DNA from: Eunapius fragilis
Lineage: Eukaryota; Porifera; Demospongiae; Spongillida; Spongillidae
Assembly: GCA_963681505.1 (NCBI GenBank)
Contig: OY811974.1
Span: forward strand, 8,580,239-8,644,238
Length of the DNA: 64,000 nucleotides
Reading direction: 5' to 3'
Shown here: piece by piece, positions 1-24,147 of the stretch
How positions within the stretch are numbered: the stretch's first letter is position 1
How the letters are laid out: each line of letters starts with the position of its first letter
Program-made: the position numbers and the translations under genes
Notes under the pieces: model-generated
Told to the model about the DNA's origin: nothing
The model's input: only the letters and a program-made list of their open reading frames with translations
Databases searched by the model: none

Positions 1-453
1 TGCATGTACCCATATCCCCATCTACACTAACAGCACACATGTTGTGTACCTATGACATGTCGCATACATGTAAATGTCTGATACAAGTATTAGTTCTGAT
101 TTAAATGTCTTGAATATTTAATACCAACATTGGGTCTTCTAGTACCATTAATGTAGCGTAAGGGAATATTTCACATGTAATTGATGAGTCTGCAGTATAA
201 TAATTGTACCGTTGAACTAATTAACTATAATAGTATTATGCATAAATGGCTGACCATTGAAGGTTAAGCAGTCCTTATTCTGCAGGTACCTATAGGAATT
301 ATTTTCATGCAGGCAGATATATGTGTACATCACATCATCACATGTACACACACTTGTACATCACATCATTACATACGTGTATACGTGCACTTGTATGTCA
401 CGTTGTACATCATCGCACCATTACATGTACGTGTACACATGCACACACTACAG

Positions 454-570
454 ATATGTTCTAGACCTCCACCCTCCTGACGTCCAGCTAAGAATGAAGC
501 TGTGGGCCAAGCTGATACCAAGGAGAGCACCTGTGAGCACTGGTCTGGATTTTGTGGGGCTAGCAGAGAG

Positions 571-625
<55 letters not shown>

Positions 626-892
626 TGTATGTGTGTGTGTGCATGTATTTACATGTATGTGTATGTGTGTATATGTGTGTGTGTGAAGCAGTGGTGACTT
701 GCCTTCTATTTGCACAGGTTTGAGTTTACTGGTGGGCAAATTGCCAACAGCATATGTTATGCCTCAGAGTGGGCATCAAATAGACCGCATTCAAATGCAG
801 TCATCACAAATGACGACCTCAATGCAGCAGCAGAAGAGGAGTGGAAAAGAATGCAGCAGGGAATTTCTCCTGCAATGGGCATTTTTCAGTAA
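454..892 (+). CDS. 3' end of a two-domain AAA ATPase gene (duplicate copy, partial)
   Basis: Two exons are visible, 454-570 and 718-892, ending in TAA. They encode the C-terminal lid region of the second AAA module: a YVLDL start, a helical MKLWAKLIPRR segment, then FEFTGGQIANSICYA, the helical-lid signature of classical AAA proteins, and a tail ending GIFQ. The intron uses a GC donor (AG|GCAAGT) and a normal CAG acceptor. A GT donor a few bases further on would lead straight to a stop, so the GC-AG intron is the only one that keeps the frame. The same two exons at 22459-22575 and 22675-22849 differ by very few residues. The rest of this copy should lie left of the window. Whether it is expressed cannot be judged. 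Confidence 0.75.
573..685. repeat. (TG)n microsatellite at an intron donor
   Basis: The intron 571-717 is largely a TG dinucleotide run that starts directly after the GC donor. Copy B has a much shorter run at the same place (22580-22650). Confidence 0.9.
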
Positions 893-1174
893 CTGAGTTT
901 GTAATTGTAGTTGAGTTCGTTGATGGCACTGCTGAAAAGTGCAGTAAAGAATTTTTAATACATGTAGTTTCAAGTGATTGTGTAAATATTCCTAATACAT
1001 TTACATGCATACATAAATTCCATCTTAAAGCCGTCCAAAATGAGATAGCAATGAAAATCCACATGTTGTTCAGTAGAGGTAGAGTCATTGTCACACTCCT
1101 GTGGGAACAGGAAGCAACAGACACTTTTGGTCAGCATGAACAATCTAATTAACCTGATCTTTGAGCACAGTGCC

Positions 1175-1293
1175 TAGTCTCGTACCCAGACCCACATCGC
1201 AGCTGCGGATGGAATACATCACCGCCTACGCGACTCGCGTAGGCGGTGATGTATTCCATCCGCAGCTGCGATGTGGGTCTGGGTACGAGACTA
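1175..1293. mobile_element. Perfect fold-back MITE, MULE-like (TIR TAGTCTCG, 9-bp TSD)
   Basis: The 119-bp element is almost entirely palindromic: it starts TAGTCTCGTACCCAGACC and ends with the reverse complement. It is flanked by the 9-bp direct repeat CACAGTGCC at 1166-1174 and 1294-1302. Copy B of the duplication (near 23120-23130) has the same flanks with a single CACAGTGCC, so the empty site is in the same window and the insertion followed the duplication. Target duplications of 9 bp are typical of Mutator-like elements; that assignment is inferred from the duplication length alone. Confidence 0.9.
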
Positions 1294-2551
1294 CACAGTG
1301 CCAGTCGTTTCTTCAGCAATTCCCAATGTTCTGTACGCACGGAAAAATAACCATCGCTACTGCTGTAACGCTCGCAAAGATAATTAGCATAGTTTACATA
1401 TGTGGTCAACTTTTTCACACCTAATAACTTATGATATTTAAAAGTTAGTATAATACATAAAAATACGCAGGGTAATAGCCTGCACTCATCCACAAAAATG
1501 CTTCCAAAAATGAAACTTTTGTGTGTTGAATCGATATAGAATGACCCATTACCTGCAGCGAAATCACTACCTCGCTTGCATCTACAAAATTAGTTCAATT
1601 CAGCCACACCTAACAGTAAGCACTCATATAATAAATATGGCTAAGGGGACTTTACATACTCTTTACCAAGTTTATCTATTTTCCTTTGAGAATGCAAGTT
1701 GCTCCAGGAAAAAGTTCTAGCAGATGAAATACTGCGACATTATTCCATGGAGAACATACAACTCAGAAGAGGAAAACAAGGATGTTTGTCTTGCTCCTTG
1801 ACAGCCGACTGTACTTTACTAAGAACGGATGGGACACCCATCTGCTGATATATAAACAATGTGAGAATACTGTTTGGATATAGGCTACCACGTAAAAAAA
1901 CATATTTTTTTATTTCAGTGGAAGGCAGGAATATAAAACGGTCGATAAAATGTCCATGCAATGTTTAAATTATCACCATCACGTACTATCTGCGATAACA
2001 TTGCATCATTCATGTATTATTATTCGTATATGCATGGCATGTAATCCCGACATGTCTGTCTCGAAATGCCATTCGATATTGACTTAAGCTCCATGCAGCG
2101 CCATGCATGATGGGATTATGATATCTGCGCCCCATGTAGTGTTACGGTTGAAAATGGCGTGCGCCCCCCCCCCCCCCCCCCCCCCCCCCACAAATACATG
2201 CAAGTACATGTATGGTATCTGCATGTGTAGGAAGCAATCCTAACTTGGAAGTCTGCATGGGCATAATAAACTATACGCCTGTGAGTAGACAAAACATTGT
2301 GTGCCGGTTGTGGATTGAACAGTGTTTCTGTGGTGTACGGCACAGTGTGCATGCGTGGTGTGTGGACTGAAATGTGTTTGCATATGTGTGTCCGATGAGG
2401 ACTGAACGGTGTACACGTATGTGTATTTGTAGGACTAAAAGTATTAAGATGTGTGGACGTTGCGCGTGTGTGGACTGAACAGTGTGAAGTGCAGCTGCAG
2501 GTTGGGTGCATGTGTGCAGTGAAGTTGTGTGTGATCATAGATTATGATCAT

Positions 2552-2665
2552 AGGACTATGACATTTTCCCTTACTATTACAGACCCTTTTTTCCTTGCTT
2601 TTTACACCACCACTGTCTATATCTCACCAACTTTCTCATGGGGAATGTTTTTAGTTACTTGTTTC
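2552..2665. mobile_element. Half copy of a palindromic MITE family (family member at 42234-42506)
   Basis: This stretch reads ACATTTTCCCTTACTATTAC, then a cytosine-rich part and CACCAACTTTCTCAT. It matches one arm of the complete inverted-repeat element at 42234-42506. It is present in both duplicated blocks (also about 25463-25567), so it predates the duplication. Confidence 0.6.
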
Positions 2666-3684
2666 ATAAATTTTATTCTCATGCATAACTGCATGATAGT
2701 TTGGAATTTACAATATATTTACTACTGATCAAGTGCGGTACAAATGCGTTAGTAAATATGGTATTTGTGACATCAACACAGTAGTAAATATAAAGCTTTC
2801 ATTTACTATAGCGGAAATGTCACAATACAATATTTACAACACATTTGCACCATATTTGAACAGCTAGTAGTAAATATACTGTAAATCCAAACTTTCATGC
2901 AGTGATATCTCTAATTATACGCCTTACACTGACCGTACACATGTAGTTGATTGTAAATCATTTGCTACTTCTCCTGTAGTTTTCTGGTTTGGTATTGACA
3001 ATTTTAAACTTGTCAAGATCCTGCCTTGTAATGATACGAGTAGCATTCAGTACGGCCCAAATATAACATTACAATTAATATACAATTGACTATTTCCTCA
3101 AGTAGGCACTTTTCCAGCCAATTCTGAAGCTATTGGTCGACTTACCATTCTTTAATTGTGTTCCTATCCTAAGTTATGCGTGGTCAAGAAGAAGGATAAT
3201 TCTGGGACTGGGTACGCGAGGACGTACCAGTACTCTTTTGTTCTCTACAACCGCGCGATTTTGCGACATAAAACATAGGACGAAATTAATCACTTTCGTC
3301 TTCTCGTTCGATTACAACAACTAGCTAAACGATCCGATCGTCAGGAGTCTCGTTATCACGGATCGTGTGTTTTTAATGATTTCATAGACGGGATCAAGTC
3401 CTATATATAAGGTTGTAAGCGAAACTTCCGATGATGTGATGTGGATTGAACAGTGCGTGTGGTGTGGGCTGGAATATGTGTGCATGGGTGGTATGTTTAC
3501 TGAACAGTGTGCTTGTGGAATGAACAGTCTGTGTGTGTGAATGTGTGCGTGTGTGTGGACAGAACAGTGTGTGTAGTGTGCGGTTGGCTGCATGTGTGCA
3601 GTAAAGTGTGTGGATGTGCGTGTGATTATATCTATGGTGTGATGTGGAGTGTGTACTGAATAGTGTGTGTGGAATGAACTGCCT

Positions 3685-3688
3685 GTGT

Positions 3689-3753
<65 letters not shown>
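3685..3753. repeat. (GT)n microsatellite
   Basis: An uninterrupted GT run inside copy A. The equivalent in copy B (26585-26628) is shorter and interrupted by CG steps. Confidence 0.95.
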
Positions 3754-3758
<5 letters not shown>

Positions 3759-4540
3759 AACAGCGTGTGTTCGTGTGGATTGTATAGTGTGTGCGGTTTG
3801 TGGAATAAAGCTAAGGGTAGGAATCTTCATAAGTACTAACCTTTGTTGTACTTTCGATACAATCACGGAAAGCAGACATAGTACTGAATCTTTAAAAAAA
3901 TCTACTAAGCTTTGTTGTAGAAGTAACTTTCGATGCACCTATATTACATTGGAAATCTGTCCTCAATTACTAGTACCTGTACTCTCCATTCTAGGCCCTA
4001 TATACATAGACCATATCATATTCCTCAGTTGTGATGTATACAGGGCCTGGACATGAGATAAATTGCTAAGGGTTACCGTACATTAAAACATATGCCATGT
4101 CATGCATGATCATTAAAAGGTCCTAAATCATGCATATTAAAATTTAGGCCCTAAACTACCCAACTAAGCCTATCGTTCAGGACCTATCATGCGTACTGCT
4201 AATATTATCGTAATCCGGACTCGGACTTTTCCGGGAATTGTTGAGACAGTGTTGTACATGTATTTATACACCTGCAGCATAACGGAGAACGATGTTGAAT
4301 ATGAATTGCAAACGTAATTTTGACGTACGGCACACCAATGCCCGTATCCAGGTCCGCTTGCTTACTCTCGGTCCGTACACGCGGGATAACATGCATATGC
4401 CGATCACGTAAGACGGTTGCGATCACGTGCTAATATGTGCCTGTCATTGCGCTTGCAAGCCGCTGTGACTGTCTGAAGTCCTTGAGGGAACAGTTGCGGT
4501 AGGTGGGCTTCTTGTTTAGACGGTTGTGTCACAGCCTGGA

Positions 4541-4604
4541 CCGTATATAAGCAGCCTAACAATTTTGGATCAAACTCAGATTTCTCGGACTACAACGTTC
4601 AACG
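4541..4604 (+). promoter_or_regulatory. TATA-box core promoter of the microexon peptide gene
   Basis: TATATAA lies at 4544-4550, about 55 bp before the start codon at 4605. That leaves room for a start site near 4573-4580 and a 5' leader of about 25-30 nt. The segment lies just right of the duplication break at 4262 and has no counterpart at 27126. Confidence 0.6.
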
Positions 4605-5857
4605 ATGGCCTCAATAATCGTGAAAGTAGCTGTAATTGCAGCCGTTTTTGTCATCGCCGTACACGGCCGACCTCGCAATGATGAGCGAGGTACTGCAGAT
4701 ATTATGCATAACATTGACATGTAATTGTTATACATTTACAATTTGAATGAAAGGTATGGAAGAGGAGATGAAATCTAATGGTATGTTTGTATGCCTCATT
4801 CCTTCTCCCCCCCCCCCCCCCCCCCCGAGCCCTTCCGTAAACATGTATCACCCAAATCCCACATTGTATGTGACCGGCCGTTAACAAACAATGATATATT
4901 GCTCCACCAGGCTGTTGGGAATATGTAAGTGTGCAACGTAAACTTGTAGCCACACTAAACATAATTTACTTCTTCATATGATATTCACCTCATGACAACG
5001 AAGTGCGTAAGTTCATCCACTGATAGATGATCTTCAATTCTTGGATTATTTTGCTTCCAATGCATAATGATATTCAAGACAGTAAGTTAGTCACTCACAT
5101 CAACGATTGCGTTACTTGTATTTGCCGCATAGTCTCCTGGCCATGTAAGTACTCAAGATTGGTGGTGGTAAGAAAACCACATTTTGCTCCATGAACGTAA
5201 AATGGCGTCACTCAAATCACTTATCTCTTAGTGCGTAAGTGCGTCAATGAAATTTATGGCATAATATTTACTTATCCTCTAAATTTCTAAAACAGGCCGG
5301 CTATGAATGCGATTACGTGAGTACAATTTTCAACATGCATGCCCCACGGGATGGTAAACGATTGCTACATCCCAATCCTCGTTCCACAATTAATCTCTTA
5401 GTGCGTAAGTGAATTTTGATTAGTACATTATGCCACCTAATATACTTGAATGCATTTTCACATCAGCATCCATTCGTAAGTATTTGTTACAATGACGAAC
5501 CATTCATTTGTCTGTTCAAATTCAACGACGGCCTCCTCGATGGACTTTACAGATAGTAAGCGATGACTGGTAGAATTTATGTCTCAAGTTATAAGCTTTT
5601 CTTCTTTTGCATTTGATTTCTAGCGAGTGAGTTATCCAATTAATTGTACAGTTGTTTCAATAAGTGAATGCATTGTAATATAACTTCAAAAACGATCTCC
5701 TTTTTTTCCAGAAAGTAAGTAAATCATGCCGGTTCTCTGTCATGTTAAACACTTTCGGTTGCCTTTTATTCTAGTGTGTAAGTATAAATGCAACAGTTTG
5801 AAGTGACCTCCATATGTATACCACCTAAAGTGCAAAAACTTTGTGGATTGCTCTTGA
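4605..5857 (+). CDS. Secreted eight-cysteine peptide encoded by single-codon microexons
   Basis: Exon 1 (4605-4689) encodes a Met, a Lys and a hydrophobic run ending VHG: a clear signal peptide, followed by a charged RPRNDER segment. The remaining exons keep one frame: 4911-4924; 5004-5006 (TGC); 5079-5081 (ACA); 5133-5144; 5232-5234 (TGC); 5296-5316; 5402-5404 (TGC); 5467-5475; 5553-5555 (ATA); 5634-5636 (CGA); 5712-5714 (AAA); 5775-5777 (TGT); 5831-5857 with TGA. Every exon after the second has a length divisible by three, and nearly every donor is GTAAGT, GTGAGT or GTAAGC. From exon 2 on the introns are 51-87 nt. The product is about 63 residues; the mature part has Cys spacing C-x3-C-x5-C-x4-C-x2-C-x6-CC-x5-C, eight cysteines, suggesting four disulfides. 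The weakest exons are 5004-5006 (poor pyrimidine tract) and the last. A first AATAAA follows at 6250. Function is not known; a toxin-like, antimicrobial or signalling role is guesswork. Confidence 0.7.
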
Positions 5858-6949
5858 ATTTGAAGCATGTACGTATTTTTTGAATTATATGAATCTGCTT
5901 TTATGCTATGTAATTTTATCGTCTCTGTTGCCTCAATTACTTCAACCAAATTGGTACGTCTCTCATCGTATCAATATATCAATTTAACAAGACTATCCGA
6001 ATTATAGCACTCCATGAATATTTGAAGCGGCATCTACCCTACCCGAGTACGTTAACTCATTGGTTTATTGTACTCATGGTTGACTCATAAATTTCCCAGA
6101 CCATTCACAAAATGCAGTTTGAGCTATGTAGGACATATAGGACTTGCAAGTTGCGTTTTTTTTTTTAATTGGCTGTGTTTTTCGGCGCTCAATGAAAACA
6201 ATTCTCTAATATATGTATTTCAATTCTCCTCGCGCGACACGTACATGCAAATAAAATCAAAACAGTGTGATACGTTCCAGTGTTGCCGCGGTAAAAAAAA
6301 TTTGGACTAACCGTTATTATTAACCGCGAGATGTGTATCGCAGGTAGTCCATTTAACCTTGGTTAATCTACATATTCATTTCTATTGCATACGGCGGGAA
6401 AAACGAGTGAAAAGCAAGCAGAGCCGAGCGACTTAGTGCCTGCCGCCTGCTCTCCCATATCACAATTCACAGCGTGGCCTACTACGTATACTGAGATATG
6501 CAGGGTCAACTCACGCTAATGTATGCAGATACGTAAGCATACATGCGCATATGCGGACCAGTATGTTGGCTCGTACAAAATATGCAAATATCAAGAGCAG
6601 TGTGCAGAAGGGGGTTTACTATTCGAAGGGTATCAAACAATTAAACACACTTAATTTGGAAACGAGCGTGTGCAGTATAAATAGTGCGTAATTAATAGGA
6701 ATATTTAAGCCAGAGATCAATACTTTGTACACAGAAAAAAAAAGGTTTGAAATACATTTGGCCATCTTTTTCAACAATTTTATAACATGGCATTTTAAAT
6801 TCATGATGATATCTGTAGTTTGTGGAAAATACAACAGTTTGCGTCAGTTTTCCACGGATATACATATTAGCCTCCACCGTTGTAGTATTATTCGTAGAAA
6901 AATATACGTTTCTGTCGGTTGAACGTCGTGAATTAGACAGAAACTATGC
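5858..6949. other. Intergenic stretch, no gene seen
   Basis: The stretch is A+T-rich, with a possible poly(A) signal AATAAA at 6250-6255. No exon with convincing splice sites or a coding motif was found. Confidence 0.5.
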
Positions 6950-7076
6950 TCCCTCCGTTTTGTGATTGGTTGTACAGCACGTGATTGCCACGTGGATAGA
7001 GGTTTAAATAGAAATGGAGCTGGGCTCTTATTCAGTCTAAGTGTCGTGCACGTGCTGCTAACATTTTCTTGCTGCG

Positions 7077-8099
7077 ATGCCTGGTGAGGGAGAAACGAAT
7101 GAGCAGGCTACGACAAGCGACTCGATAGCCCTACTACTAGAAGGCATGAGGCAGATGCAGGAGGAGCTCAAGGTGGTGCGACAGGGGCAGGAGGAGACAA
7201 GCCAGCGGTTCGCTATACAGTCGCATAAGGATAGCTACTCCTTCAAGAAAAAAGGCAACGAGTGCCAGTTTAAAGCTAACCAGCAAGTGACAGATCGTCT
7301 GGCGGTGGTTGCGAGCTGTCTTGACCGGGTGGAGGCTATCGGCACATCGGGGAAAGAGCAGTTAGAGAGGGCGAGGAAAGAAGTTGTCGAAGGTATGTCC
7401 TTCCTCGCCCGCAGGCAGAAACTTATAAAGTTGGCGGATCGTTCTGAGTCGGGGTGGGCCGTCGTCGAGGAGTACGACGCGGATGCCCTAGCCGACAACT
7501 CTGAGGACGAGCGGAAGATTGAGAAGGCCGAAAAAGCGGCGGAAAGGAAGTTGGCCAAGCGAAGGAAGGCACAGGATGTGAAGCATAAAGCAGGGATTGC
7601 CAGGAGTGACGCTGCAGAGACCGTAAGGCAGACCTTACCAGTGCTGCAACCGAAGATCCCCAGTGCCGAGTCCAAGGCTGGAGGCAGTGGCATGGCCAGA
7701 GCTAGATTCCCTGTGGGGTCATGCTTCAGATGCGGTGACCCTGGCCATTTTCAGAGAGAGTGCCCAAAGATGGCACCGCCAAGGGCAGAGTATCCATTAA
7801 TCAGTGGTGTTGAGCATGTGGACATGGAGGGTGTTGATGGAGGGGATGTGTCACCTTATATGTGGAGAAGTGGGGAGAATGTGTTACCTGAGGAAGACAA
7901 GTGTATCTCTAATACATATAGATGCTGGGAAGCCCAAGAGGGAGATGATGGTATTGGTTCTGTAAGGGGACGGTTGGGTGCGTGTATTTCATACTGGGAG
8001 AAGGTGCTGTGTGCACCACCATGGGTGTTGGAAACACTGAGAAATGGGTATGTTAGAACTACCCTTCTATTCAGAACTGGCACCCTATGCACGTCCTAA
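7077..8099 (+). CDS. Gag-like part of the DIRS-like fossil
   Basis: The N-terminal half is helical, with coiled-coil character and a ADRSESGWAVVEEYDADALA segment of the kind found in DIRS/Ngaro gag proteins of cnidarians and sponges. A lysine- and arginine-rich stretch follows, then one CCHC zinc knuckle (CFRCGDPGHFQREC) at about residues 217-230. The role would be RNA packaging. It is a fossil part. Confidence 0.8.
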   Translation: MPGEGETNEQATTSDSIALLLEGMRQMQEELKVVRQGQEETSQRFAIQSHKDSYSFKKKGNECQFKANQQVTDRLAVVASCLDRVEAIGTSGKEQLERARKEVVEGMSFLARRQKLIKLADRSESGWAVVEEYDADALADNSEDERKIEKAEKAAERKLAKRRKAQDVKHKAGIARSDAAETVRQTLPVLQPKIPSAESKAGGSGMARARFPVGSCFRCGDPGHFQRECPKMAPPRAEYPLISGVEHVDMEGVDGGDVSPYMWRSGENVLPEEDKCISNTYRCWEAQEGDDGIGSVRGRLGACISYWEKVLCAPPWVLETLRNGYVRTTLLFRTGTLCTS

Positions 8100-9859
8100 T
8101 CAGCATTCTGCTCAAGTAGAGGTAGAATTTGTTTCAAAAGCAGTAGCAGAGTTACTAAATGGTGGGTACATTGAGAAGGTATCCGAGCTACCTGTGGTAT
8201 GTAGCCCATTATCTGTAGTTACCAATGGAGTGGGTAAACAACGGCTTGTAGTTAATCTACGGCATGTTAATCGCTCTCTTTGGAAACAAAAGTTCAAGTA
8301 TGAAGATTTGCGTGTGGCGATGATGATGTTCAAACAAGGTGAGTGGATGTTCTCATTTGATTTGAAAGCTGGTTATCATCATGTGGATGTTGCTAAGTGT
8401 CATCGTAAGTACTTGGGTTTTGAATGGGGGGGAAGCTTTTACACATTTGTGGTAATGCCATTTGGGTTGTCCTCAGCACCTTATGTATTCACTAAGATGA
8501 TGCGTCCCTTGGTACGATTATGGCGTAGTAAGGGGTTAAAGGCAGTTGTGTATCTTGACGATGGCATTGTAGCAGTACCGGATGAGACAGGTGCAATTAC
8601 TGCCAGTGGCTTCGTAAGGTACACACTATATAAGGCGGGGTGGGTGTGTAATGAAGCTAAGTCCACCTGGGTGCCAACACATAGGCTGTCATGGTTAGAG
8701 TTTACTATGGATCTAGAGTTGGGGTTAATCATGGTGCCTGACAAGAAGATTGAAGCCTTAAAAGAAAAATTGCTTACAGCCATGGAGCAACCAATGCTTA
8801 GAGCTAGATTTATAGCAAGCTTAGTGGGTAAGATTATATCAATGAGTCTAGCTCTTGGCTCAGTGGCCAGATTCATGACACGTGCTTTATATGCACTGCT
8901 GCTAACTAGGCAGGCATGGTGCGATAGGTTGCCTTTAACATCTGAGGCGAGGGAGGAACTTAAATTCTGGTCTGAGTCACTCAAAGAGTATAATGCACAA
9001 CCTATATGGCACAGTCCATCTGCAGTCAGATGTGTGTACTCTGATGCTAGTGACACTGGTTACGGAGGCTATACAGTTGAGCATGGCATGCATGTTGCAC
9101 AAGGGATGTGGTCACCAGAGGAAGCAAAGCAGAGCTCTACCTGGAGGGAACTGGTAGCAGTGGGTAGGGTGTTAGATTCAGTTGCAGGCAGGCTTTGTAA
9201 TGCTTGAGTGCGTTGGTTCACAGATAATCAGAATGTTGTACGCATTCTTCAAGTAGGTAGCAGAAAGCCCCATCTTCAGGTGGAGGCCTTAAGAGTGTTT
9301 AGATTTTGTATAAAGTACAATATTCGGCTTGAGCCGGAATGGGTACCCATTGAGATGAATGAGCTTGCAGACTATTTTAGTCGTGTGGTAGACTATGACG
9401 ATTGGTACATTGACCATACTGTGTTTTAAAATGGTGGATGATTGGTGGGGGCCACATAGAATCGATCGATTTGCAGCTCCATACAACAAGCAGGTAGAAC
9501 GATTCAACTCACGTTATGCATGTTCTGGGACAGAGGCAGTGGATACTTTCACAGCGAACTGGTATGGGGAGAACAACTGGTGGTGTCCACCACCCAGTCT
9601 TATCCCAAGGTTGATTAGGCATGCAGAGTGTTGCAAAGCCCAAGGGACATTAGTAGTTCCATGGTGGGAGTCAGCCCCGTTTTGGCCCTTGTTGTGCCCT
9701 AAGGGTGGCAAATGGGCGTCATTTGTAGTGGATTGTGGGACATTGCCATTGTCAGAAGAGCTTATCAGACCAACAATTAGGTTCTACCCCCTGACAACCA
9801 TATTCAAAATCTACCCGCAATGCTATCACTGCAGTGTTAGGGAATTTTCCTCCAAATAA
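8044..9859 (+). pseudogene. Reverse transcriptase / RNase H part of the DIRS-like fossil
   Basis: Reverse transcriptase blocks are recognisable: LVVNLRHVN, FSFDLKAGYHHVDV (motif A), MPFGLSSAPYVFTKMMRP, and VVYLDDGI (the catalytic YxDD). The RNase H start VYSDASDTGYGG and its TDNQNVVRIL block follow. After that come DIRS-typical EWVPIEMNELADYFSR and a WWCPPPSLIPRLIRHA-type segment. The region carries a small number of breaks. Confidence 0.8.
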
Positions 9860-9990
9860 AGCTGAACCCATTTTGCCGTAGCTTTTAGAATTGTGTCGAT
9901 CAGTATATCGACTCCATTGTTGCTCTTCGTGTATGGTTTTTTGTTTTTGTGTTGTACTGTATGTTGCTCTATGTGGTTTGCAGGCGTGCA

Positions 9991-10257
9991 CAATGACGCT
10001 GTACCTATGTGTGGTTAAGTGGTTAGTGCTGTACTGGGAGCATGAGGAGGGAGTTAAAAGTAATGGCTTTCACACAGGCACACAGCATTCTGCCCTTATA
10101 CATGTACCATCCTAACAGCACTGGTCCCCAGCCCCTCCTGACGTGATTCACCCCCATCCCTAATACTGGTCCCCATTCCTCTTAATGCCAGGCTCCTCCC
10201 AGTATCAGTACAGTACCCTATAAATGCAATAACAATGCAAATCAAAAAAAGTGGACG
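9991..10257. other. Intergenic stretch, no gene seen
   Basis: This short unique-looking stretch lies between the retroelement fossil and the MITE end at 10258. No coding or RNA feature is supported. Confidence 0.4.
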
Positions 10258-10320
10258 TAGTCTCGTACCCAGACCCAAAGTTTCACAGCTGCGGATGGAT
10301 TACATCACCGCTAGCCTAAG
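10258..10320. mobile_element. One end of a MULE-like MITE (TAGTCTCGTACCC family)
   Basis: The sequence starts TAGTCTCGTACCCAGACCC and continues with CAGCTGCGGATGGA and TACATCACCGC, as in the fold-back element at 1175. The palindrome is not completed, so this is a solo or decayed end. Confidence 0.7.
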
Positions 10321-10617
10321 TGAAAAATGGGCCTGGTAAAGTCCTATATTCAATTCACCCAGAATGTCGGGGGACCAATCAGATTTGAGGTATGCGTTTA
10401 TCACCCATTATCGTGCGATTAATTAGCAATTACCCGGCGCGAGTGGAGAGAGTGAGAGAGAGCGATCGAATCGGCATGCCGACATTTGGGGCATTCGAAG
10501 TTGAAAGAAACGCAACGGCTAGATACATGTAAGAAGCGGGATGGGCGCATGAATGAATGATTTTTTAATAGTAATATTCGGTGCTCTTTTGGAATATTTC
10601 GCTTCTTCAAAGGTAAT

Positions 10618-10783
10618 GGGTATGAGAAAATTTAGACTGGTGTCACACCGAAAGAATGTAGAACGCATGAAGCGATCTTTCATCCTATCCATTAAACGCG
10701 AGAATATCAGCGTTCATGTTTCATCCCTGAGTATAACAACGTACGTCACAACAAAGATCAATGCGGACTGGAATGAGAGCTGA
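10618..10783 (+). CDS. Short unrecognised ORF with an RKFRL...HRKN motif
   Basis: The reading frame encodes MGMRKFRL, then HRKNVERMKR. The minus strand at about 29040 encodes a closely similar MGRRKFRL, then HRKNEERRK, inside a transposon (28382-29624). The shared, very basic N-terminus suggests a transposon-borne or repetitive coding exon rather than a unique gene. No known domain was recognised. It may be only part of a larger decayed element. Confidence 0.3.
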
Positions 10784-10789
10784 GAGCAT

Positions 10790-13045
10790 ATTATCTGACA
10801 TGGTGATAAATATGTGGGGGTTTGTATTCGTGGATTCTCTTACATCAGTGCGTGGATTGAGAAGTATAAAGTGGATCAGAAAAAAACAACACAGAAGTCC
10901 AAAGAGCTGAGGAAGCAATTGTAGATACTTATACGTGTATTTGAGCACGTAATTGTTGTCTTTTAATCTCGCAAACCCTCAGTATTCAAGGATGGGGAAA
11001 AGTCAATTTATTGCAAAAACTATGACCAAGCACATAACTCAAACAGATATCAGAAGGTGCATTAGAATTCTTAATAATTCAACCTTTAATGCAACCATTG
11101 AGAATGTCTTTCATCTATGTTATAACCTTTATTAAGCAAATGCATTAATATTTGCCTACGAGCATTAAGGACTGTTGAAGCGATTCTGACACAGGCGCCG
11201 GACAATGCTCTGGTCAACGCAGTAGGTACTGGGCAACTGCTCAGGAAGCAACAACAATAACCAGTGTCGTAGTCCAATAAGTACCACATGTAGCTACGAA
11301 CTGAATATTTCAAAGTCACACCAAAGTAGCTCACAGTGGATGTACGGGTGTTTGTAACACACTACATGGGGATTATACTCAGAAGTGTTTACGGACAATG
11401 AATGACATGCTGGCTATGCTGAAGGCAGCGCAAATGGGTTGCAATCTCAGCTGTCCCATGGCGACCAGAAGCATACGTGTGACCCTGCAAATCCCAACAG
11501 GCTCTCGAGACAAGGTTCCACCAGCACCACACGAAGCATTAACTAATGTTTTATTGCTCTTTCAATACAAACGACAGTTTTGAAAACGAAATATTGAAGA
11601 AGACATTCTCTAAATGAAGCTGCACGATCGTAATAAATGCGCTTTAAAAATGTCTTCTACTGTGTTTTAAATAATATACGCAAAGTGTATAGTCAGGCAC
11701 GCCTTATCCTTTCAGTAGATCCTTTGGTATATGAAACCTGTGTTTGCTTTCGGTTGCATCGCGCCCCAATTGACAGTTTGGGCAACTCATACAATAAAGA
11801 GCCACGAGGGACACAAATTTCAAATCTTATAACGATGTGCGATAAAAGGAATACTATGCGCGTGCGCGTCATAGTTATAAGATTGCAAAAAGAAAACCTT
11901 TCCGCTATGATATGTCCCCATCCTAAGTTTCACATGCATGCTAAAGAAAATATTACTGACAAGTAGTTCTCTTCAGCGTCTGTTCCACTTCATTTATGAA
12001 TTGTGGATAATTGTGACGGGGTTGGCAGAGCATACATCTAAACAACAAGCCTGTATATTCAAACCTTCCTTTAAGGTATAATCTAATTAAAGAACTCGCT
12101 ACTTTAGACTGCACGGTCACTGTTCCTCTAAATCAGAAAATCAGCAGTTAAGTGGACAAGTGAGCTGGTGTGAATGTGGGTCAGCAGCAAAGAAAGTTAC
12201 CTATATGACACCACATGGTAGCATGTCTATTCCATGCTATCTTTAGTTAGGGGTCTCTCTTTTCATTGCGCTACTCGGTCTGTAGTGGGTGCCATGGGTT
12301 GGTTGTCATGCACTAAACATCGAAATCTGTACCTGACCTAAGATAAATTTGTTCCATCTGGTTTTCTACTACTGCCCCACTGCTCACCACTGCTTTTCTG
12401 AACAAAGCAGCATGTCTGCAGCAAACAATTTCTACAAATGACAGAGAAACCACAAGTGCCATGAACTGGGCTGGGTGTGTTCTCTTTAGAGCAGTAAATC
12501 ATTTTAATCATCATTATTCAAAAAAACATATTATTAGTTATAAACCAATGCACATGCATTTTACAGCATGCATTGCCAAGCACAATGCCCAGAAAGAATG
12601 GCCCTGGAGTTAGCTCTGATGTGCATAGTTTGGTTTGTTCAATCAAATCCCTTGCTGGATTGTAAAAAGCATATACTGTTGAACCATCTTCAGCACATAA
12701 ACTTCAATTTGTAAAATTGTATCCTATCTCCTGCTTGTATCCTGTATTTTTTTTATCTATGCACATGCCCTGTACTTATAAAACCAAGTCGTTGTTTTGT
12801 ACTGTTTATGATGAGAGGTTTTTGTTGTTGGTTACCTAAAATACTACGTGACTCTATATGCTCGCACTGCCAAACACGTTTCATTTTTATCCTGATTCAT
12901 TATTGCCATTTGGCGTTAAACGTGGCATACCTTCCAACAATATGCCTTGTATTGCACTGATGGATATTGGTTTTAGTCAGCAGAAGCCCTGGTGTTCATA
13001 TGGACGAATTATAAAGTTTGCATATGTAATAGCAAGGCATTGGCC
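10790..13045. other. Long stretch without a recognisable gene
   Basis: The region is A+T-rich with short open frames only. It should contain the 5' exons and promoter of the AAA gene that starts being readable near 13046, but I could not place a start codon or first exon with confidence. Confidence 0.4.
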
Positions 13046-13492
13046 TGGTACTTCAATGGGTAGAGGCCACGCCCCTCGTGTGCGCGCTCGACGACTTCCT
13101 GCCCGCCTTGGACCGCATCCTCCTGAGGCACGAGCCGCCCGGCACCCCGCCCCCAGGTGCCTCCCCCGCCGCGCCCCCTCTTGTCTCGGCCGGGGGACCG
13201 TGACCAGGAGTACGTGGAGCTCCTGGAGATGTACTGTCTCCTGAAGGCAAGGCTATTGGACGTGCAGATGAGGGGAGGGCCGTGGTGACGGGTTCCCAGC
13301 CCGCCTCACGCTTCCCGGGGTTTGCTGAGCGGTATTACAACGAAAACCTCCCCTCCCTCTCCTCCCTCGTACAACACTGCTGGTCCCTGCTCCGTTGCTA
13401 CGAGGGACAAGGGGGAGGGGCCCTGGGGGAGGAACGGGGAGGGGTCCCGTGTCAGTACCTTCGCCTTTTACAGAAGCTGGGCCTCACAAATA

Positions 13493-13544
<52 letters not shown>

Positions 13545-15848
13545 GTGTATGCATGTATGTGTTTAGTATGGTGGTTATATGACCACCTCGTATACATGTA
13601 CTCACAGGAGCGGGAAGCTTTTCACTTCATCTTTGTGAACAACACTGGTATCTTGTTCCCCACGGTACGTACAGGGAATACATATTTGTGTATGTATTTT
13701 CACCCTTCCTACTCCCCCCCCCCCCCCCCATCTCCGCACCCCTCACACACAAAGCTCTACCCACGCTTCCAGCCCCCTATGGCCAACTCAGGGGTAGGGG
13801 GCAGCAGGACCACCTCCATGGCTCTGGCTGCAGCCACCTTTGCCCAAATGTCACCCAAGGAGATGTGTGAGTGAACCACCTCCAGTTATTCAAATAATGA
13901 ACTACCTACCCCCACCTCCCCTTCCTCCTCCCCTTCCTCCTCCCAATCCTCCTCCCCTTCCTCCTCCCCTTCCTCCTCCCAATCCTCCTCCCCTTCCTCC
14001 ACCTCCTCCCCAGTGCAGTTCTTTGACCAGCAGCGTCAACACATGAAGCAAGAGCTGTTTGAAGCTGATGATGAGTTTTCCTCTGTTACCACAACAGCCT
14101 TCATAAAGATCCCTTCCACAGTGTTGAAAGTTTGGTAGGGGATGGAGGAGAGAGGGAAAGGAGTGTAGGGAGGGAGATGAGGGAAAGGAGAGAAGGAAGT
14201 GTGAGAAGGGATAGAGAGAGGAAAGGGAAGAAGAGTTGGGAGGGGGGAGCGGTGGGAGGGAGGTGTAAGGAAAATTCATGTCGGATTGTACTGCCATGTG
14301 TAGACTATGTATTCACACCTCACAGCTGTGGGTGTGTGCTCAGTGCTGATGAACTGTACAAGGTGGACAAGACAGTTGTGGGGGACATCTTGGTGCAAGA
14401 GCACATGGAAGGGGAGGGTAGCCCGCCTGCACCGTTGTCAGGTGACAGGAAGGATGAGGCGGAGCAGGAAGAGGTGAAAATGGAAGAGGTGGAGCTTGAA
14501 AATGATGAGCACAATTTGAAGGAAAGGAAAGTGTTGGATCAGGAAGGGGAGGAGCAGGAAGGGGAGGAGCAGGATGCGGAGGAAGAGGACACATCCGCTG
14601 TGGAATCTCTTCTGCAGGAGAGCAGATCAAACATTCTGGTGGTTGTCAAGGAAACATCACATAAGAAGGGAAATACATGTATGCACATCCCAAACTCGGC
14701 ATACATACCAATCTAGCTGTGTTTTACATTGGCTCACTTTCTCCCCATCCACCTACATGTATCAGGAAGATGGAGCTGAGCGATGACATCATGTTTGCTC
14801 GCCCAGATCAGCGCAAACCTGAGGCCATCATTAGGGAGCTCAAGGCCAAAGCTAGGGGACTGAGGTGGGCGGGGTCATGGAGTGGGTGTGGTTTAGGTAT
14901 GAATATTTTAATGAATATTTGTTCTTGCATCATGTCTTTGTCTTTAGGTCCAAATTGAGAAACGTTTGGAGGCTACACGCAGAATTGGAGGTTGTGTGGG
15001 TGTGGCATGTGTGGGTGTGGTTGTGGAGATGATAGCACATTTGGGTTGAAATGTCTGTACTGTATTTGCATGTGACGCTCGTAACATGGCCTTATATGGT
15101 ATGGGGCTTGTGATGACTTCATCTGATGCATACTTACTCATAGATGGACGAGGGATTGGTGAGGTGAGGTGGTGGGATAAGGGGTGAGAGCATGTGGGGT
15201 GGGGTGTGTGTGGTAGGATGATTAGTCTGTATGGGATCCCCCCCCCACCTCCCCCTCACTCTGCAGTGTGGCTTCCTAGACTGGAGAGGCTCTCAGAGCT
15301 GAGGAAGTTGGAGACATTTGAGAGGAATGTTTTATTGGTTCTCACAGGGTCCATGGTCTCCCGTAACCTAAGAAATCCTGGTAATTTGCCTGTGTGTGTG
15401 TGTGTGTGTGTGTTTGTGCGTGTTCAGTGGTTCCTCCCCCCATCTTTTGTAGTGGTGGGGGTAAGTAGTGAGCACATGTGTGCTATGCCCTTCTGTTGAC
15501 AGGCTCCAATGGTGATTCCTTGTTTGGACGTCACCTGACTATTGGTGCGGCCATTGGTCTGTTCTGTGAGGACCTCAGCGATGAGATACGCTCCAGGACA
15601 TACTTCTATAAGAACTCCAAGCTGGTAACTAAGTCGTTTGGAGGTGTCTTTTATTATGACATCCAAACCCCTCTCTGCATGGTGTGTGTGTGTGTGTGTG
15701 GGGTGGGGTGCACAGGTATCAGAGGGGCTGGTTCACATCAATGACCCGCCCCTCCATGACAGGGGAAACTTTCTGGACTGTGTGGTGGAGCTGGACCGAA
15801 GACTACATAGTGGGCCTGGATACCGAGATGAATGAGCTGGTGGATGGA

Positions 15849-15886
<38 letters not shown>

Positions 15887-18800
15887 GATGTGTGCTCCCT
15901 GTGCCTACCTATCATATTGACCTGCAACCATAGCATTTTTTGCTCATCATTTTTCAAAATTTTGTTATGCAACATTTGGTCATGTGATGGCAGTCATGTG
16001 ATGGTAGTCATGTGATGACAGTCATGTGATGGCAGTCATGTGATGGCAGTCATGTGGCTCATTCCCTCCTCCTCAGACCTCTACCACTATGCTCATTCCC
16101 TCCTTGTCCCTGCAGACATGTAAGGACCTTGGTCTTAGCACCAAGGGAACAGCTAGAGGACTGTGTTTGCTATTCTATGGACCTTCAGGGACAGGTACAC
16201 ACACATGTAGAGGGACAGAGGGATGCAGAGGGGCACAGGGGTTACCTAGGGCATGTGAGGGGCACAGGGGTTACCTAATGGATGTGAGGTGCACAGGGGT
16301 TACCTAGGGGATGTGAGGGGCACAGGGGTTACCTAGGGGATGTGAGCTACATGTACATACATATTGTGTACACGTTTTCTGTGGTGCTGTGTTCACTGGC
16401 ATGGTTTTAAGGATACATGTATGTGTGTATAACCTCAGATTATGGAGATGTTTAGGATGTTACATGTACCATCTATGGAGGTGTTGGGATGGTCCCATCT
16501 ATGGAGGTGTTGGGATGGTCCCATCTATGGAGGTGTTGGGATGGTCCCATCTATGGAGGTGTTGGGATGGTCCCATCTATGGAGGTGTTGGGATGGTCCC
16601 ATCTATGGAGGTGTTGGGATGGTCCCATCTATGGAGGTGTTGGGATGGTCCCATCTATGGAGGTGTTGGGATGGTCCCATCTATGGAGGTGTTGGGATGG
16701 TCCCATCTATGGAGGTGTTGGGATGGTCCCATCTATGGAGGTGTTGGGATGGTCCCATCTATGGAGGTGTTGGGATGGTCCCATCTATGGAGGTGTTGGG
16801 ATGGTCCCATCTATGGAGGTGTTAGGATGGTCCCATCTATGGAGGTGTTGGGATGGTCCCATCTATGGAGGTGTTGGGATGGTCCCATCTATGGAGGTGT
16901 TGGGATGGTCCCATCTATGGAGGTGTTGAGATGGTCCCATCTATGGAGTGTTGGGATGGTCCCATCTATGGAGGTGTTGAGGTGGTCCCATCTATGGAGG
17001 TGTTGGGATGGTCCCATCCATGGAGGTGTTGGGATGGTCCCATCTATGGAGGTGTTGGGATGGTCCCATCTATGGAGGTGTTGGGATGGTCCCATCTATG
17101 GAGGTGTTGGGATGGTCCCATCTATGGAGGTGTTGGGATGGTCCCATCTATGGAGGTGTTGGGATGGTCCCATCTATGGAGGTGTTGAGGTGGTCCCATC
17201 TATGGAGGTGTTAGGATGGTGCATTGGACAAGAACTGTTGTGGGTTGTGTTTCCATGAGGACTGCTTGAATCCATGATGAGGGTTATTAATTGTTTGGTT
17301 GCATAATAGGAAAAACAATGACGGCAAATGCTGTGGCTAACTTCCTGAAGAAGAAGGTGTTGCTTGTGACTGTGTCCATGTTAGAGAAAGACCTCAGCAA
17401 GGTATGTATGTACATGTATGTATGTATGTATGTATGTATGTATGTATGTATGTATGTATGTATGTATGTATGTATGTATGTATGTATGTATGTATGTATG
17501 CATGCATGCATGCATGCATGCATGCATGCATGTATGTATGTATGTATGTATGTATGTATGTATGTATGTATGTATGTATGTATGTATGTATGTATGTATG
17601 TATGTATGTATGTAGGTATGTATGTATGTATGTATGTATGTATGCATGTAGGTACGTACGTACTTATGCATACATGTATGTATGTATGAATGTATGTATG
17701 TATGTATGTATGTATGTACATGTATGTTTGTTTGTTTGTTTGTTTTTTTGTTTGTTATGTGTCATGTTGTCTTTCCTTTACTCAAGGGAAAGTTCTGTTC
17801 TTCTCCCCTAACATGACTGTACTCTGTGCATGTATGTACATGTATATGATGGAAGTTATTATCATGTACGTTCAGTATTGTATGTCATCTTCCATTGTCA
17901 TTTCCCGTACTCAAGGAGCTCTTGAAGTTCCTCTTCAGAGAAGCTAAGATCCATAATGCTATCTTGTTCTTTGATGAGTGTGAGTCGCTGTTTGAGTCCA
18001 GGGAGACACGACCCAACCCAAACCTAGGTGTCCTGCTAACTGAGGTACCTCTAACACTATGATCCCTGCTCTCATTTGGTTGGTGGGTTTTTACGTCCCA
18101 GATTGAGCAGTATGATGGTGTGATCGTCTTGGCAACCAACAGGCACCATGACCTTGATGAAGCCATGCATAGGAGGTAACTGTTATGAGTGGTTTTGACC
18201 ACACCTCTTAATGATGCTGACCACACCTCTCTGCAGGATACAGCTGGCCCTGTCCTTTGCTGTGCCTGACTACACCCTCAGGGTTAGTATATGGCGCCCC
18301 CATGTCCCAGGTATTGTGTGTGTGTGTGTATGTGTGTGTGCACATTTATGTACATGTACATGTATTGTTTTTTGCCATATATGGTTGTGCTTGTCCCAAT
18401 GTAACAACTGCATGCTCTAAAAGCAGTTTTGTATTTTTTTTTTTCATTTTCTATTATTAAATGTACACATATACTCATAAAATGAATAGTGAGTGGTTTT
18501 ACTTCCTAACATCAACTTTTCCTCACCTGTGGTTTGCACATGTATGGTGGTTGCCATGGTAGCCATCTGTGGTACATGCGTGATGGTGTACGTGGGTTTT
18601 ACCATACAAGGGTCACTCCTTAAAACAAGGGGAAGGGGCGGGGCTTATTGTGGTCATTGTTGAGTTGTTGTGTTTACAACAACAAGAACACACATGTGTG
18701 TATACCCTTGGTGTGAAGTAGTGTTACACTCACATATCATATATGTATGTGTGGTTTGTGTGATGATGTAAGTGGGTGTGGTGGGGAAATACGAGGATCA

Positions 18801-19628: not shown

Positions 19629-22600
19629 TTTGGTGGAAGTGCAGTTTGCTGGCTATGCACACACAACATGGTTGTTAGTACAGCAGCAGTGACTATGCGC
19701 ATGCATACATGTACATGGTCACTGCTGAGGGACATTGCTGGGTGAAACTGTTCAATATACCAGTGTGTGTGTGTGTGCATGTGTGTGTGTGCATGTGTGT
19801 GTGTGTGCGTGTGTGCGTATGTACAGTGTACATGTATGTGTGTGTGCGTGCGTGTGTGCTTTGTACACTGACTGGCTGCAGTACATCTACATGTATGTAT
19901 GTCATTTTAGCATGTAAATGATGTAATGCAATATGATGTAATGTGTACGTACTGGAGCTGACAGAGTCCTGTTTCCATTTGATCTGTATGTACATGAACG
20001 TACTGGTCCTGTCCTGTTCCCATTCCGTTCATCTTGCCTCTGTTCCCAGCTGCCGTAGTGGCACCTGATGTGAGCTGGTCCCACCTGGCCATGAGCTATG
20101 AGCTAACAGGAGGACTGATACGTAACGCTGTCCTCTCTGCACTGGCCTTGGCCATCAAGGGTTGCCATGGCGGCACACTTGTCATCACAGAGCAGCACCT
20201 TATGGAGGGAGCCAGACTGCAGCTAAGGTGTGTGTGTGTGGAGAGAGTGAGGGAGGGGGAGGGGAGGGGGAGGGGGAGGGTTGGTGGCAATTTAATTAGT
20301 AGATAAAACACTGTATACAAGTATATATGTATATGACAAAGATGACGACTGTTAGGGATTTAGATATTTAAATGGTGCCTAGCCATAAAGTGTATCATTA
20401 AGCTTGTGAATATTGTGTACTTTTATTTATACTAAAGGCGTGTCCAGGTATTACATCTGTGCACATTTAGCCAATGGGTTAGTGGCATTTAGCTGATGAG
20501 TCATATGACGTTTATGAACCATTAATTAATTGTATTCTTTTTTACTTTGAGGGGGGGATGCTCGCTAAAAAGTTTTATCTCATTGGTACCTGGACTTATT
20601 ATTTTTCTAGCTGGCAGGTGCAGGGTTGGTTGCTCTTGTTGTGTGTACTGAATATCTACATGTACATGTACCTGCTCTCGATAAATTACATCTACTGTAC
20701 TTAAAATTGTCCAAATGTCAAGCTTTATTGATGAAAGTTAGCCAAATTAACCCCCTGGCAACCCCCTGGGGAAATATCCCCTTTGCTACCTCCCCCCCCC
20801 CCCCAGGGGTCTGCTAGAGATGGTGGACTTTGAGAGGCGGGTCATCCCCACCTTTGGTCTGAGGGACCTGGTGTACAGCCAGCCTACCATGGATACCCTC
20901 CAACACTTCCTCGTGGCCGCCAAGGCACGCAAGTTTGTGGCCACCCAGTGGGGCTTCTCCTCTGAGGAGAACGTGGCCCAGACCCACGGCATCATTCTGC
21001 TGGTGTGCGGGCCTCCCGGGAGCGGGAAAACGGCCATCGCCCACGCCATGGGCTACGAACTAGGGCAGCCAATAAAGGTAATCTCCACACCCTCATCCCG
21101 GGCCATGTGTATGAATATGAGTTGACATATAACTTTACATGTATAACAATAACCACACCAAACATCTACACACGTACGTGTAATTACCACGTAGTAATAA
21201 CTATGGGCATTTATAGCAACTACAGGGACCAAATTACATCAATTATTACAGGTAAGAATTACATGTATATTCCATGTTGGTTGGTGAGAGCTTGTGGTCA
21301 ACTGGTGAGGGTGGAGATTGGTTGATGAAGGTGGAGGTGTGTGGTTAGTGAGGGTGGAGGTGTGATTGGTAGAAGTGGAAGGTGTGTTGATACAGGTGGC
21401 AGGTAATCTTTTCTGTTTCAAAAAACAACGTAAGTAGTGCAGTTGCACAAACTTAAGGTTTTGTTTAGCAGATAAGGAGGAAGGGTGTGGTTAGTTAGGG
21501 TAGAAGTTTAGTTGATGAAGGTGTGTTCCTCTCACCCCTCCCTCACACCCCCTCCCTCCCCCTTCACAGGAGGTGAACTGCACAGAGCTTCTCTCCCACA
21601 CGATGACTGCCAGTCCCAGGAACAATAGGGGCGTGGCTGCCTTCTTCAAAGATGCCCAGAGGGCCAATGCCATGGTGGTACTGGACGGAGCAGAAGTTAT
21701 CCTGGGAAGCTATGGAGGTGTGCTCTATTCAGAGTGGTATGTATATATTTCAAATGCTAGCTTTTGTTCCTTGCAGTGGGCAGTTTGGTATCCAGCCTCG
21801 TTGGGTGTGAGACCTTCACCTTGGCATATCAGATTGAGCACTACAACGGGATAGTTGTCCTCACCAGTCGACAGCCGCTGGGCCAGTTGGACGTGCCACG
21901 CCAACCTAGGCTGAGGTACATGTAGTTATGGTTGTGTGCACATGTGGATACGATTGCAGTGTAGTTGGTGTACTGCACATATTGAAATGCATAGTTTGTG
22001 CAGACAATAATGTAAAATGAATATGGCCAGACATGGAAGGCCAATGACACTACATGCATGTACCCATATCCCCATCTACACTAACAGCACACATGTTGTG
22101 TACCTATGACATGTCATATACATGTAGATGTCTTATACAAGTATTAGTTCTGATTTAAATGTCTTGAATATTTAATACCAACATTGGGTCTTCTAGTACC
22201 ATTAATGTAGCGTAAGGGAATATTTCACATGTAATTGATGAGTCTGCAGTATAATAATTGTACCGTTGAACTAATTAACTATAATAGTATTATGCATAAA
22301 TGGCTGACCATTGAAGGTTAAGCAGTCCTTATTCTGCAGGTACCTATAGGAATTATTTTCATGCAGGCAGATATATGTGTACATCACATCATCACATGTG
22401 CACACACTTGTACATCATCCCACCATTACATGTATGTGTACACATGCACACACTACAGATATGTTCTAGACCTCCATCCTCCTGACGTCCAGCTAAGAAT
22501 GAAGCTGTGGGCCAAGTTGATACCAAGGAGAGCACCTGTGAGCACTGGTCTGGATTTTGTGGGGCTAGCAGAGAGGCAAGTGTGTGTGTGTGTGTGTGCA

Positions 22601-22849: not shown

Positions 22850-23149
22850 CTGAGTTTGTAATTGTAGTTGAGTTCGTTGATGGCACTGCTGAAAAGTGCA
22901 GTAAAGAATTTTTAATACATGTAGTTTCAAGTGATTGTGTAAATATTCCTAATACATTTACATGCATACATAAATTCCATCTTAAAGCCGTCCAAAATGA
23001 GATAGCAATGAAAATCCACATGGTGTTCAGTAGAGGTAGAGTCATTGTCACACTCCTGTGGGAACAGGAAGCAACAGAAACTTTTGGTCAGCATGAACAA
23101 TCTAATTTACCTGATCTTTGAGCACAGTGCCAGTCGTTTCTTCAGCAAT

Positions 23150-24133
23150 TCCCATTCACCCCCAAAAATCAACGAGGGATGTCTTCATCATCTATATCAT
23201 AACATTGTAGTTCCGTTTGCATATTCACTGATGCCTGTGTCAGAATTTAAATCATTGATGATATTCTGCTTCCCTATACTAGCAGCATACAGTAAAGGAT
23301 GGTTATGAAAAAAAATTTTCAATACATCCATAGACTGGAAATGGCTCTCCAGTCACATCTTCAAGGCAGTTCCAGCACCCCATCTCTTCTCTCAAGTTAT
23401 ACATGTACATGTAATCCTCCATCGATCTGCCTCCTGTTCAGATATGCAATAATTACTGGTGGTACATCTTACACAAGTTGGACTTGTAATAACTTTTATT
23501 CATTGGCCCACAGTAAAACTCTCAACATCACCCATCTCAGAATAACAGTCATCCTACATTGGGCTTTGATTTTCTATGGAAGCCATATTTGTTATTCCAA
23601 ATTTCATGCGTCTTACATAAATATAGTAATCATAATTATGTCATTCTTGAAGCTTAAATGTCCCTCTCAACATCATCAAGTAATTTTCGTATACTCATCA
23701 ATAAAATGTCAACGGGTTTATATTACACACTGATCTTGAGCAACCTCAATAAGATGTATAGCATCAGAAGTTGAGCATATTTGGTACAAACCGATTGACG
23801 TGCAGTTCAACTATTATACACATGCAAGACCTCAAGTAATTTACCGTGCTCTTGTGCTTGTTTCATTCTCTGTGTTTCGTGCACCAGGATCGCATCAGTC
23901 TGCACCACGTGCCATGAACCCACTACCTTCGAGCGTTGGAAGTGTTCATGCAATCGGAGGTAACACTCATCGACATTATGAATATAATTATATCCCTCTT
24001 CGCGCGCGCAAGACGTACAGACCATTTTCATCTGTCATGTGACAATTCCGTAATCTGCCTTACGTCAGCATCACACAACATAAATTAATATATGATTTGC
24101 GGGATTGGAACATGCTCAAGTTATGCACCTATC
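23150..24133. other. Copy-B-only stretch, no gene assigned
   Basis: This has no counterpart in copy A. A possible exon between CACCAG at about 23887 and GGTAAC at about 23961 has usable splice sites but no recognised motif, so no gene is called. Confidence 0.35.
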
Positions 24134-24147
24134 ATTGTTACGTGAGA

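Follow-up and report, generated by a model that had tools for sequence, protein, structure and literature searches.

The gene at positions 4605–5857 (plus strand) of the window, by which we mean the whole 64-kb stretch analysed (G000:C4:8580239-8644238), appears to belong, as one of its milder examples, to a class spread through the genome of this freshwater demosponge (Eunapius fragilis), whose genes would encode their secreted peptides through exons of a single codon. A preliminary description had proposed a secreted cysteine-rich gene built largely of such exons at this site, a proposal supported by a duplicate copy, a depletion of stop codons, splice-site constraint in related arrays and the existence of the class itself. 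Beyond it, the pattern extends to a large class, including one array modelled with 52 consecutive one-codon exons set in similar introns. We consider it highly probable that the joint explanation is a working secreted-peptide gene belonging to this class, with ordered splicing, amplification of a repeated unit and products that are probably defensive. Exon anatomy, reading frame, conservation, coding signature and repeat structure are read directly from the sequence; transcription, the order of splicing and peptide function are inferred.

The window gene and its upstream copy

We re-derived every exon of the window gene from the sequence and obtained the same 14 exons, phases and peptide as had been described before (about 63 residues). 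The predicted join is 192 nt and yields a 63-residue precursor, MASIIVKVAVIAAVFVIAVHGRPRNDERGCWEYCTSPGHCAGYECDYCHPFIRKCCKNFVDCS, followed by a stop. Exon 1 (4605–4689, 85 nt, ending in phase 1) contributes 85 of the 192 coding bases; it carries the signal peptide MASIIVKVAVIAAVFVIAVHG, assigned by eye from the hydrophobic stretch, and the start of the mature or pro part. Its donor is weak (GTACTG), and a phase-1 intron of 221 nt separates it from exon 2 (4911–4924, 14 nt, [G]GC TGT TGG GAA TAT). These first two exons are not divisible by three, whereas the other 12 of the 14 are, with lengths of 3–27 nt (exon 14 counted with its stop). All 12 introns after exon 2 are in phase 0 and 51–87 nt long, as claimed earlier, and by eye they are dissimilar to one another.

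Eight of the 14 exons are exactly 3 nt. Three of them read TGC (exon 3, 5004–5006; exon 6, 5232–5234; exon 8, 5402–5404) and one TGT (exon 13, 5775–5777), so that four of the eight cysteines of the predicted mature peptide each stand alone on an exon. The remaining four encode Thr (exon 4, ACA, 5079–5081), Ile (exon 10, ATA, 5553–5555), Arg (exon 11, CGA, 5624–5626) and Lys (exon 12, AAA, 5712–5714). Longer exons lie among and after these: exon 5 (5133–5144, 12 nt, SPGH), exon 7 (5296–5316, 21 nt, AGYECDY), exon 9 (5467–5475, 9 nt, HPF) and exon 14 (5831–5857, 27 nt, CKNFVDCS and the stop TGA). The codons of the eight tiny exons, the even cysteine count and a frame that opens in a signal peptide and closes in a stop all stand as first reported. 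Less uniform than reported are the donors: for exons 2–13, nine of 12 are GTAAGT, two are GTGAGT (one of them at exon 11) and one is GTAAGC (exon 10), apart from the weak site at exon 1. The window peptide is net neutral when only K, R, D and E are counted. A TATA box (TATATAA, 4544–4550, plus strand) precedes the ATG at 4605, and a polyadenylation-like AATAAA (6250–6255, plus strand) lies about 390 nt 3' of the stop.

The motif AG-NNN-GTRAGT occurs eight times on the plus strand of the window, with seven of the sites inside 800 bp, and once on the minus strand. In 200 first-order Markov resamples there were on average 2.4 sites, and never more than three in any 800 bp. The ladder of 3-nt exons in this gene is not a chance arrangement. 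For both the window gene and its copy, the first choice of the gene finder was discarded, as its first exons lay in TG repeats and its last exon was false.

The copy (L009) lies 58.6 kb upstream, at C4:8526226, and is about 99% identical; six-frame matches to exon 1 in the genome were confined to these two places. The duplication around it aligns window positions 1–18350 with C4:8521.6-8540.2 kb at 93–99% identity, and parts of window 20726–27125 match the same region, likewise at 93–99%. Between the two copies, exons 2–14 differ at 8/107 positions (by our reading, seven nonsynonymous changes and one synonymous) and introns at 4/744 (Fisher P = 1.6e-5), while exon 1 (0/85), the splice-site positions (0/104) and the eight 3-nt exons (0/24) are unchanged, as are exon 9 and the TATA box. 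The differences are confined to four of the longer mature exons: three nonsynonymous substitutions in exon 2, the synonymous one in exon 5, a Leu codon for a Tyr codon in exon 7 and two nonsynonymous substitutions in exon 14. In this pair, then, the mature part diverges faster than the introns and the signal exon. This is what would be expected if exposed residues were diversifying under selection and the scaffold, including the four single-exon cysteines, were held in place.

One caveat here is that L009 could be a misplaced haplotype, in which case the comparison would be allelic. Faster exon change was seen in the window/L009 pair only; between L011 and L014, exons do not change faster than introns (7/189 versus 133/2144, P = 0.20). 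An apparent exon excess in L011/L015 and L011/L013 was discounted, since it stemmed largely from misalignment of the first exon.

Elsewhere in the window are pieces of two retroelements. The first (7077–9207, plus strand) consists of two overlapping ORFs, with a CCHC zinc knuckle in one and a reverse transcriptase domain in the other; in the second (39226–41957, minus strand), different ORFs carry RNase H-like, aspartyl protease and gag-like domains. In-frame open tandem repeats at 16466–17220, where the period is 26 bp, and at 52879–53565 give long repetitive ORFs. A single sub-threshold Rfam match to a snoRNA within 3500–7000 (E = 0.09, 23 bits against a cut-off of 47) was taken as chance.

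A genome-wide class and its tandem arrays

We searched an assembly of 218,937,333 bases in 24 contigs. The pattern AGTGCGTAAGT occurs 180 times, compared to 50 for the reversed pattern. A pattern with two successive 3-nt exons is found 746 times, compared to 241 for its reversal, and because the reversal still matches this often, simple repeats also feed the two-exon pattern. Among eight loci cut automatically around AGTGCGTAAGT matches, three carry ladders (L005, L007 and L008, the last two overlapping L011), and 16 of a further 20 stretches have a run of at least three ladder sites on one strand. Scans for AG-NNN-GTRAGT runs found no ladder in L001–L004, in L006 or in the remaining four of the 20 stretches (L010, L017, L018 and L023), and the reversed and complemented controls of 18 scanned sources contained no run of three or more sites. 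On viral contigs there was an isolated single match to the motif (L036) and no ladder.

Gene models were built heuristically; several of their 3' ends are spurious, and the 5' ends of L028, L030, L032 and L034 are uncertain. In the model of L011, 21 of the 26 exons are 3 nt long, and that of L024 includes 26 exons of 3 nt, compared with no 3-nt exon in any of five models from reversed sequences. A signal exon leading into a phase-0 AG-NNN-GTRAGT ladder on one strand and ending in a stop exon was found in the window gene, L009, L011, L024 and L031.

A signal exon of the form MLKELAxLVxLLALFADARP (L031 query) matches the genome at 47 places on 12 chromosomes when E up to 1 is allowed; for five of these E is 0.001 or better, and a few contain internal stops. 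One extra weak match to the same query, at C1:24196169, adjoins a signal exon. The precursors of L031 and L024 also match gene models of Ephydatia muelleri that carry this signal exon (E from 1e-4 to about 1), namely EMCRGX_G021338 and the EukProt entries Em0009g88a, Em0070g11a, Em0001g3292a and Em0015g443a, the last four being assigned to this species, as we infer, by their prefix and their near-identity to EMCRGX_G021338. Since both genera share the signal exon, the precursor would be older than the Eunapius/Ephydatia split. The E. muelleri models have no recognisable array part. Further precursor matches were to ENA contigs.

In the protein collection, no candidate shares three 5-residue words with the window peptide, a method that misses distant relatives, and no spliced array peptide came up in the protein database. 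Pfam returned no family at E up to 10 for ten predicted peptides or parts, and the PDB no credible relative, its one match being insignificant (E = 0.25). A six-frame search of the genome turned up no intronless copy of this peptide.

In part of the class, the introns are near-identical. For the consensus of an 88-bp intron, at least 596 genomic matches were counted. The matches listed mostly run from GTAAGT to CAG, often 91 bp apart, which is the length of one intron plus one codon. Those listed fall on nine chromosomes and are frequent at G000:C21 0.88–1.52 Mb and C20 2.13–2.48 Mb; this concentration suggests local expansion of the intron family on chromosomes 20 and 21. We took seven such arrays (L029–L035) for modelling. 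That of L030 gave 52 consecutive 3-nt exons, 44 of which have strict AG-NNN-GTRAGT sites, and the others gave in total 32 (L031), 31 (L033), 23 (L029), 22 (L035), 19 (L034) and 14 (L032). A 28-base junction pattern, ACAATGCAG-NNN-GTAAGTATCAATGATG, has 804 matches with up to three mismatches, compared to none for its reversal, and among the 100 junction matches listed, all exact, we counted by eye no stop codon. The arrays of L029, L030 and L032 close with short exons that resemble one another, AAATGA or AAATAA (Lys-stop). After an acceptor comes a similar stretch, GTACTGGACACAC or GTATTGGACACAC; this is perhaps a shared 3' UTR exon.

How such arrays arose can be read in two ways. Introner elements are many near-identical short introns throughout a genome, and a mobile intron of that kind might have been inserted repeatedly into ordinary exons, with no tandem duplication of codon and intron together. 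The number and chromosomal spread of the 88-bp introns fit this, as does the ordinary length of the predicted mature peptides for small secreted peptides. However, each insertion would have had to land precisely three bases from the next, and always in phase 0. Moreover, unlike introner elements, the sponge introns form head-to-tail arrays with one codon between them, many units following each other at the 91-bp spacing that tandem duplication gives, and in L030 a block of residues (DPSKVIN..., FCPPDK) recurs along the array. An introner-like origin is thus possible but rather doubtful, and tandem amplification of a codon-plus-intron unit is our preferred reading.

Coding signature of the three-base exons

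If the three bases act as codons, their number should matter. In the ladder strands of 25 sources, we counted AG and GTAAGT separated by L bases and found 398 cases for L = 3, against two for L = 2 and five for L = 4. Multiples of three were also seen (22 for L = 6 and 14 for L = 9), and we attribute the counts for L = 0 and L = 1 (12 and 11) to codons such as AAG and AGA, which themselves contain AG. For L = 3, the opposite strand gave no case and the reversed sequence three.

Stop codons are strongly depleted. Among 379 distinct ladder codons there is one stop, whereas 18.6 are expected, and none of 4000 column shuffles reached so low a count. Because many loci were found via TGC, the share of cysteine codons is inflated (82/379); the figure without them is therefore given as well, and is one stop versus 9.4 expected (P = 0.00125, codon-column shuffling).

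The arrays allow a further comparison. In L029, pairwise differences amount to 4% at intron positions 7–20 and 1% in the last 12 intron bases, compared to 61% in the codons. The corresponding values are 4%, 3% and 59% for L032; 8%, 10% and 58% for L030; 10%, 14% and 67% for L035; and 22–26%, 20–46% and 60–69% for L031, L033 and L034. This contrast is inapplicable to families such as L011 and L016, because their introns are mutually unrelated, and near-identity of introns could be scored in 20 sources out of 25; in the window gene, too few introns lie between neighbouring 3-nt exons.

These results bear on the alternative that the ladders are chance or minisatellite, with splice-like motifs lying in tandem repeats or in an intron and the three bases non-coding. 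Many class members are indeed tandem arrays of ~91-bp units, and the ladders are known from genomic sequence alone. A minisatellite would not, though, be expected to keep its introns and scramble just three bases, as in L029, and stops would not be so depleted. The window gene, which lacks 91-bp units, still has its ladder and an open signal-peptide frame. Splice-site conservation points the same way. In four of six paralogue pairs, splice sites changed less than the flanking introns, most strongly in L019/L020 (0/135 versus 70/846, P = 4e-5) and also in L011/L014 (1/144 versus 65/903, P = 7e-4), L011/L015 (P = 3e-4) and L024/L025 (P = 0.015), although sites were picked as intact in the first sequence of each pair, which somewhat favours conservation. 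The effect was not significant for L013/L015 (P = 0.15) and window/L009 (P = 1.0). Overall, we regard the chance or minisatellite reading as very unlikely, and a coding role for the three bases as far better supported.

A second alternative grants that the gene is real but has its mRNA use longer exons, the 3-nt exons being mostly skipped, as decoys or regulated residues. Skipping of very short exons is common in animals, and splicing of the class is a prediction. Against this, L030 would keep almost no mature peptide if its one-codon exons were skipped, and codon identity is constrained, cysteine most of all: the residue is kept in 25/26 comparisons at Cys codons versus 61/85 at other codons (P = 0.007), comparisons that are not all independent, since L011/L014 enters once in each direction and some sequences take part more than once. 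Predominant skipping therefore seems improbable to us, and we favour inclusion of the 3-nt exons. Alternative splicing that rewires the disulfides, as the preliminary description suggested, would be a further possibility.

Individual copies may have changed by single steps. L024 reads ...SG-V-KIGG... and L025 ...SG-KIDG...; in L025 the Val codon and its donor are retained, and the acceptor before them is AA and not AG. The predicted consequence is that the L025 peptide has one residue fewer than the L024 peptide. In L014 (G000:C1:18024000-18033999, minus strand), a TAA occupies the codon that is TAT in the paralogue L011, in an array that is otherwise conserved. L014 is possibly a decayed copy, and because of its TAA some class copies may be pseudogenes.

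Known systems, proposed splicing and consequences

Several known systems share elements of this architecture. Neural microexons of animals are single insertions in larger genes, not runs encoding a whole peptide. Recursive (ratchet) splicing sites lie in long introns, where AG directly precedes a strong GTAAGT donor to form a zero-length exon; such sites leave nothing behind, whereas each step of a sponge ladder would leave one codon. Conotoxin-type precursors have a conserved signal exon, conserved introns and a fast-changing, cysteine-rich mature part, a pattern that the window/L009 pair resembles and exon change in L011/L014 does not follow; their genes consist of few ordinary exons. That a 3-nt exon can be spliced is known from Ncam (excerpts of PMC8042270).

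Schistosome micro-exon genes (MEGs) had been named as the closest known idea. As an analogue this holds, MEGs and aphid miniature-exon effectors being the nearest, but a family relationship does not. According to excerpts of PMC10526429, MEGs are like the sponge class in that their products are secreted, in having numerous tiny exons whose lengths are mostly multiples of three, in their diversity and in being difficult to annotate. Their exons reach 81 bp, with a lower limit given as 6 bp in the text and 3 bp in the abstract; the majority measure 15 bp, and the introns span 100 to almost 5000 bp. The sponge class differs in its long runs of exactly 3 nt, in introns mostly of 50–92 nt, in products that are often cysteine-rich and, for part of the class, in tandem near-identical introns. 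The window gene itself has a signal peptide (by eye) and lacks long introns (12/13 are 51–87 nt and one is 221). Its small symmetric exons, secretion and rapid evolution would suit a MEG; yet the organism is a sponge, the intron and exon lengths depart from those cited, and the word search of the protein collection with the window peptide, which would miss distant relatives, found no homology. True membership of the schistosome family has a negligible probability.

Aphid cassette effectors (KQY/KHI) likewise combine a conserved signal peptide with a divergent mature part made from miniature exons; KQY1a has 37 exons of 6–416 bp and introns of 180–5168 bp (excerpts of PMC7495047). Bicycle genes also keep their exons in one common phase, almost all internal exons being phase 2 (excerpts of PMC9168663). 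The excerpted parts of these two papers describe no runs of one-codon exons. Among the best-ranked matches in open-licence PMC texts, we found no paper on 3-nt-exon or micro-exon genes in a secreted, cysteine-rich, sponge or Ephydatia context, in keeping with the earlier statement that no equivalent had been described. We rate the one-codon-exon architecture, as read from the genomic sequence, as categorically new.

In the mechanism we propose, class genes would encode many or nearly all mature residues as one-codon, phase-0 exons between introns of ~50–90 nt with strong donors. Intron definition is favoured because the introns are this short and their donors strong, and splicing would most likely proceed in 5'-to-3' order. 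A 3-nt exon would then join the growing exon first and therefore never bind both splice complexes alone. Each AG-NNN-GTAAGT would be a ratchet-like point, and the process would resemble recursive splicing in which every step leaves a single codon behind. Among the arrays, the youngest would have amplified the codon and its 88-bp intron in tandem as a unit, the introns staying near-identical. Since the unit is a codon plus an intron, residues could be added, lost or changed singly without a frameshift. That codon and exon coincide in this way in freshwater sponges, so that tandem amplification of a codon with a homogenised 88-bp intron, ratchet splicing, and recombination between near-identical introns or acceptor loss together form an engine of in-frame diversification for secreted peptides, with single residues gained, lost or exchanged, is an idea towards which we lean slightly.

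The products are probably rapidly evolving secreted peptides, antimicrobial or otherwise defensive. This rests on cysteine content, signal peptides, and the acidic pro-region and cationic mature parts of members other than the net-neutral window peptide: the pro-region of L024 has a net charge of –10 and its array part +3, and the Gly/Arg/Lys/Pro-rich array part of L029 has +7 (K, R, D and E only). On shared signal peptides, charges, cysteines and the accelerated change in the window pair, we put a defensive role at about even odds.

Standard annotation likely misses the class, because aligners and gene finders are not built for successive 3-nt exons. Should the predicted joins prove true, dozens of one-codon exons in succession would probe the lower size limit of the exons that the spliceosome can process one after another, and would speak for intron definition and for ordered splicing of a recursive-like kind. 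Single residues would then be the units of duplication and loss, and the sponge would offer a testable route to making and varying disulfide-rich peptides.
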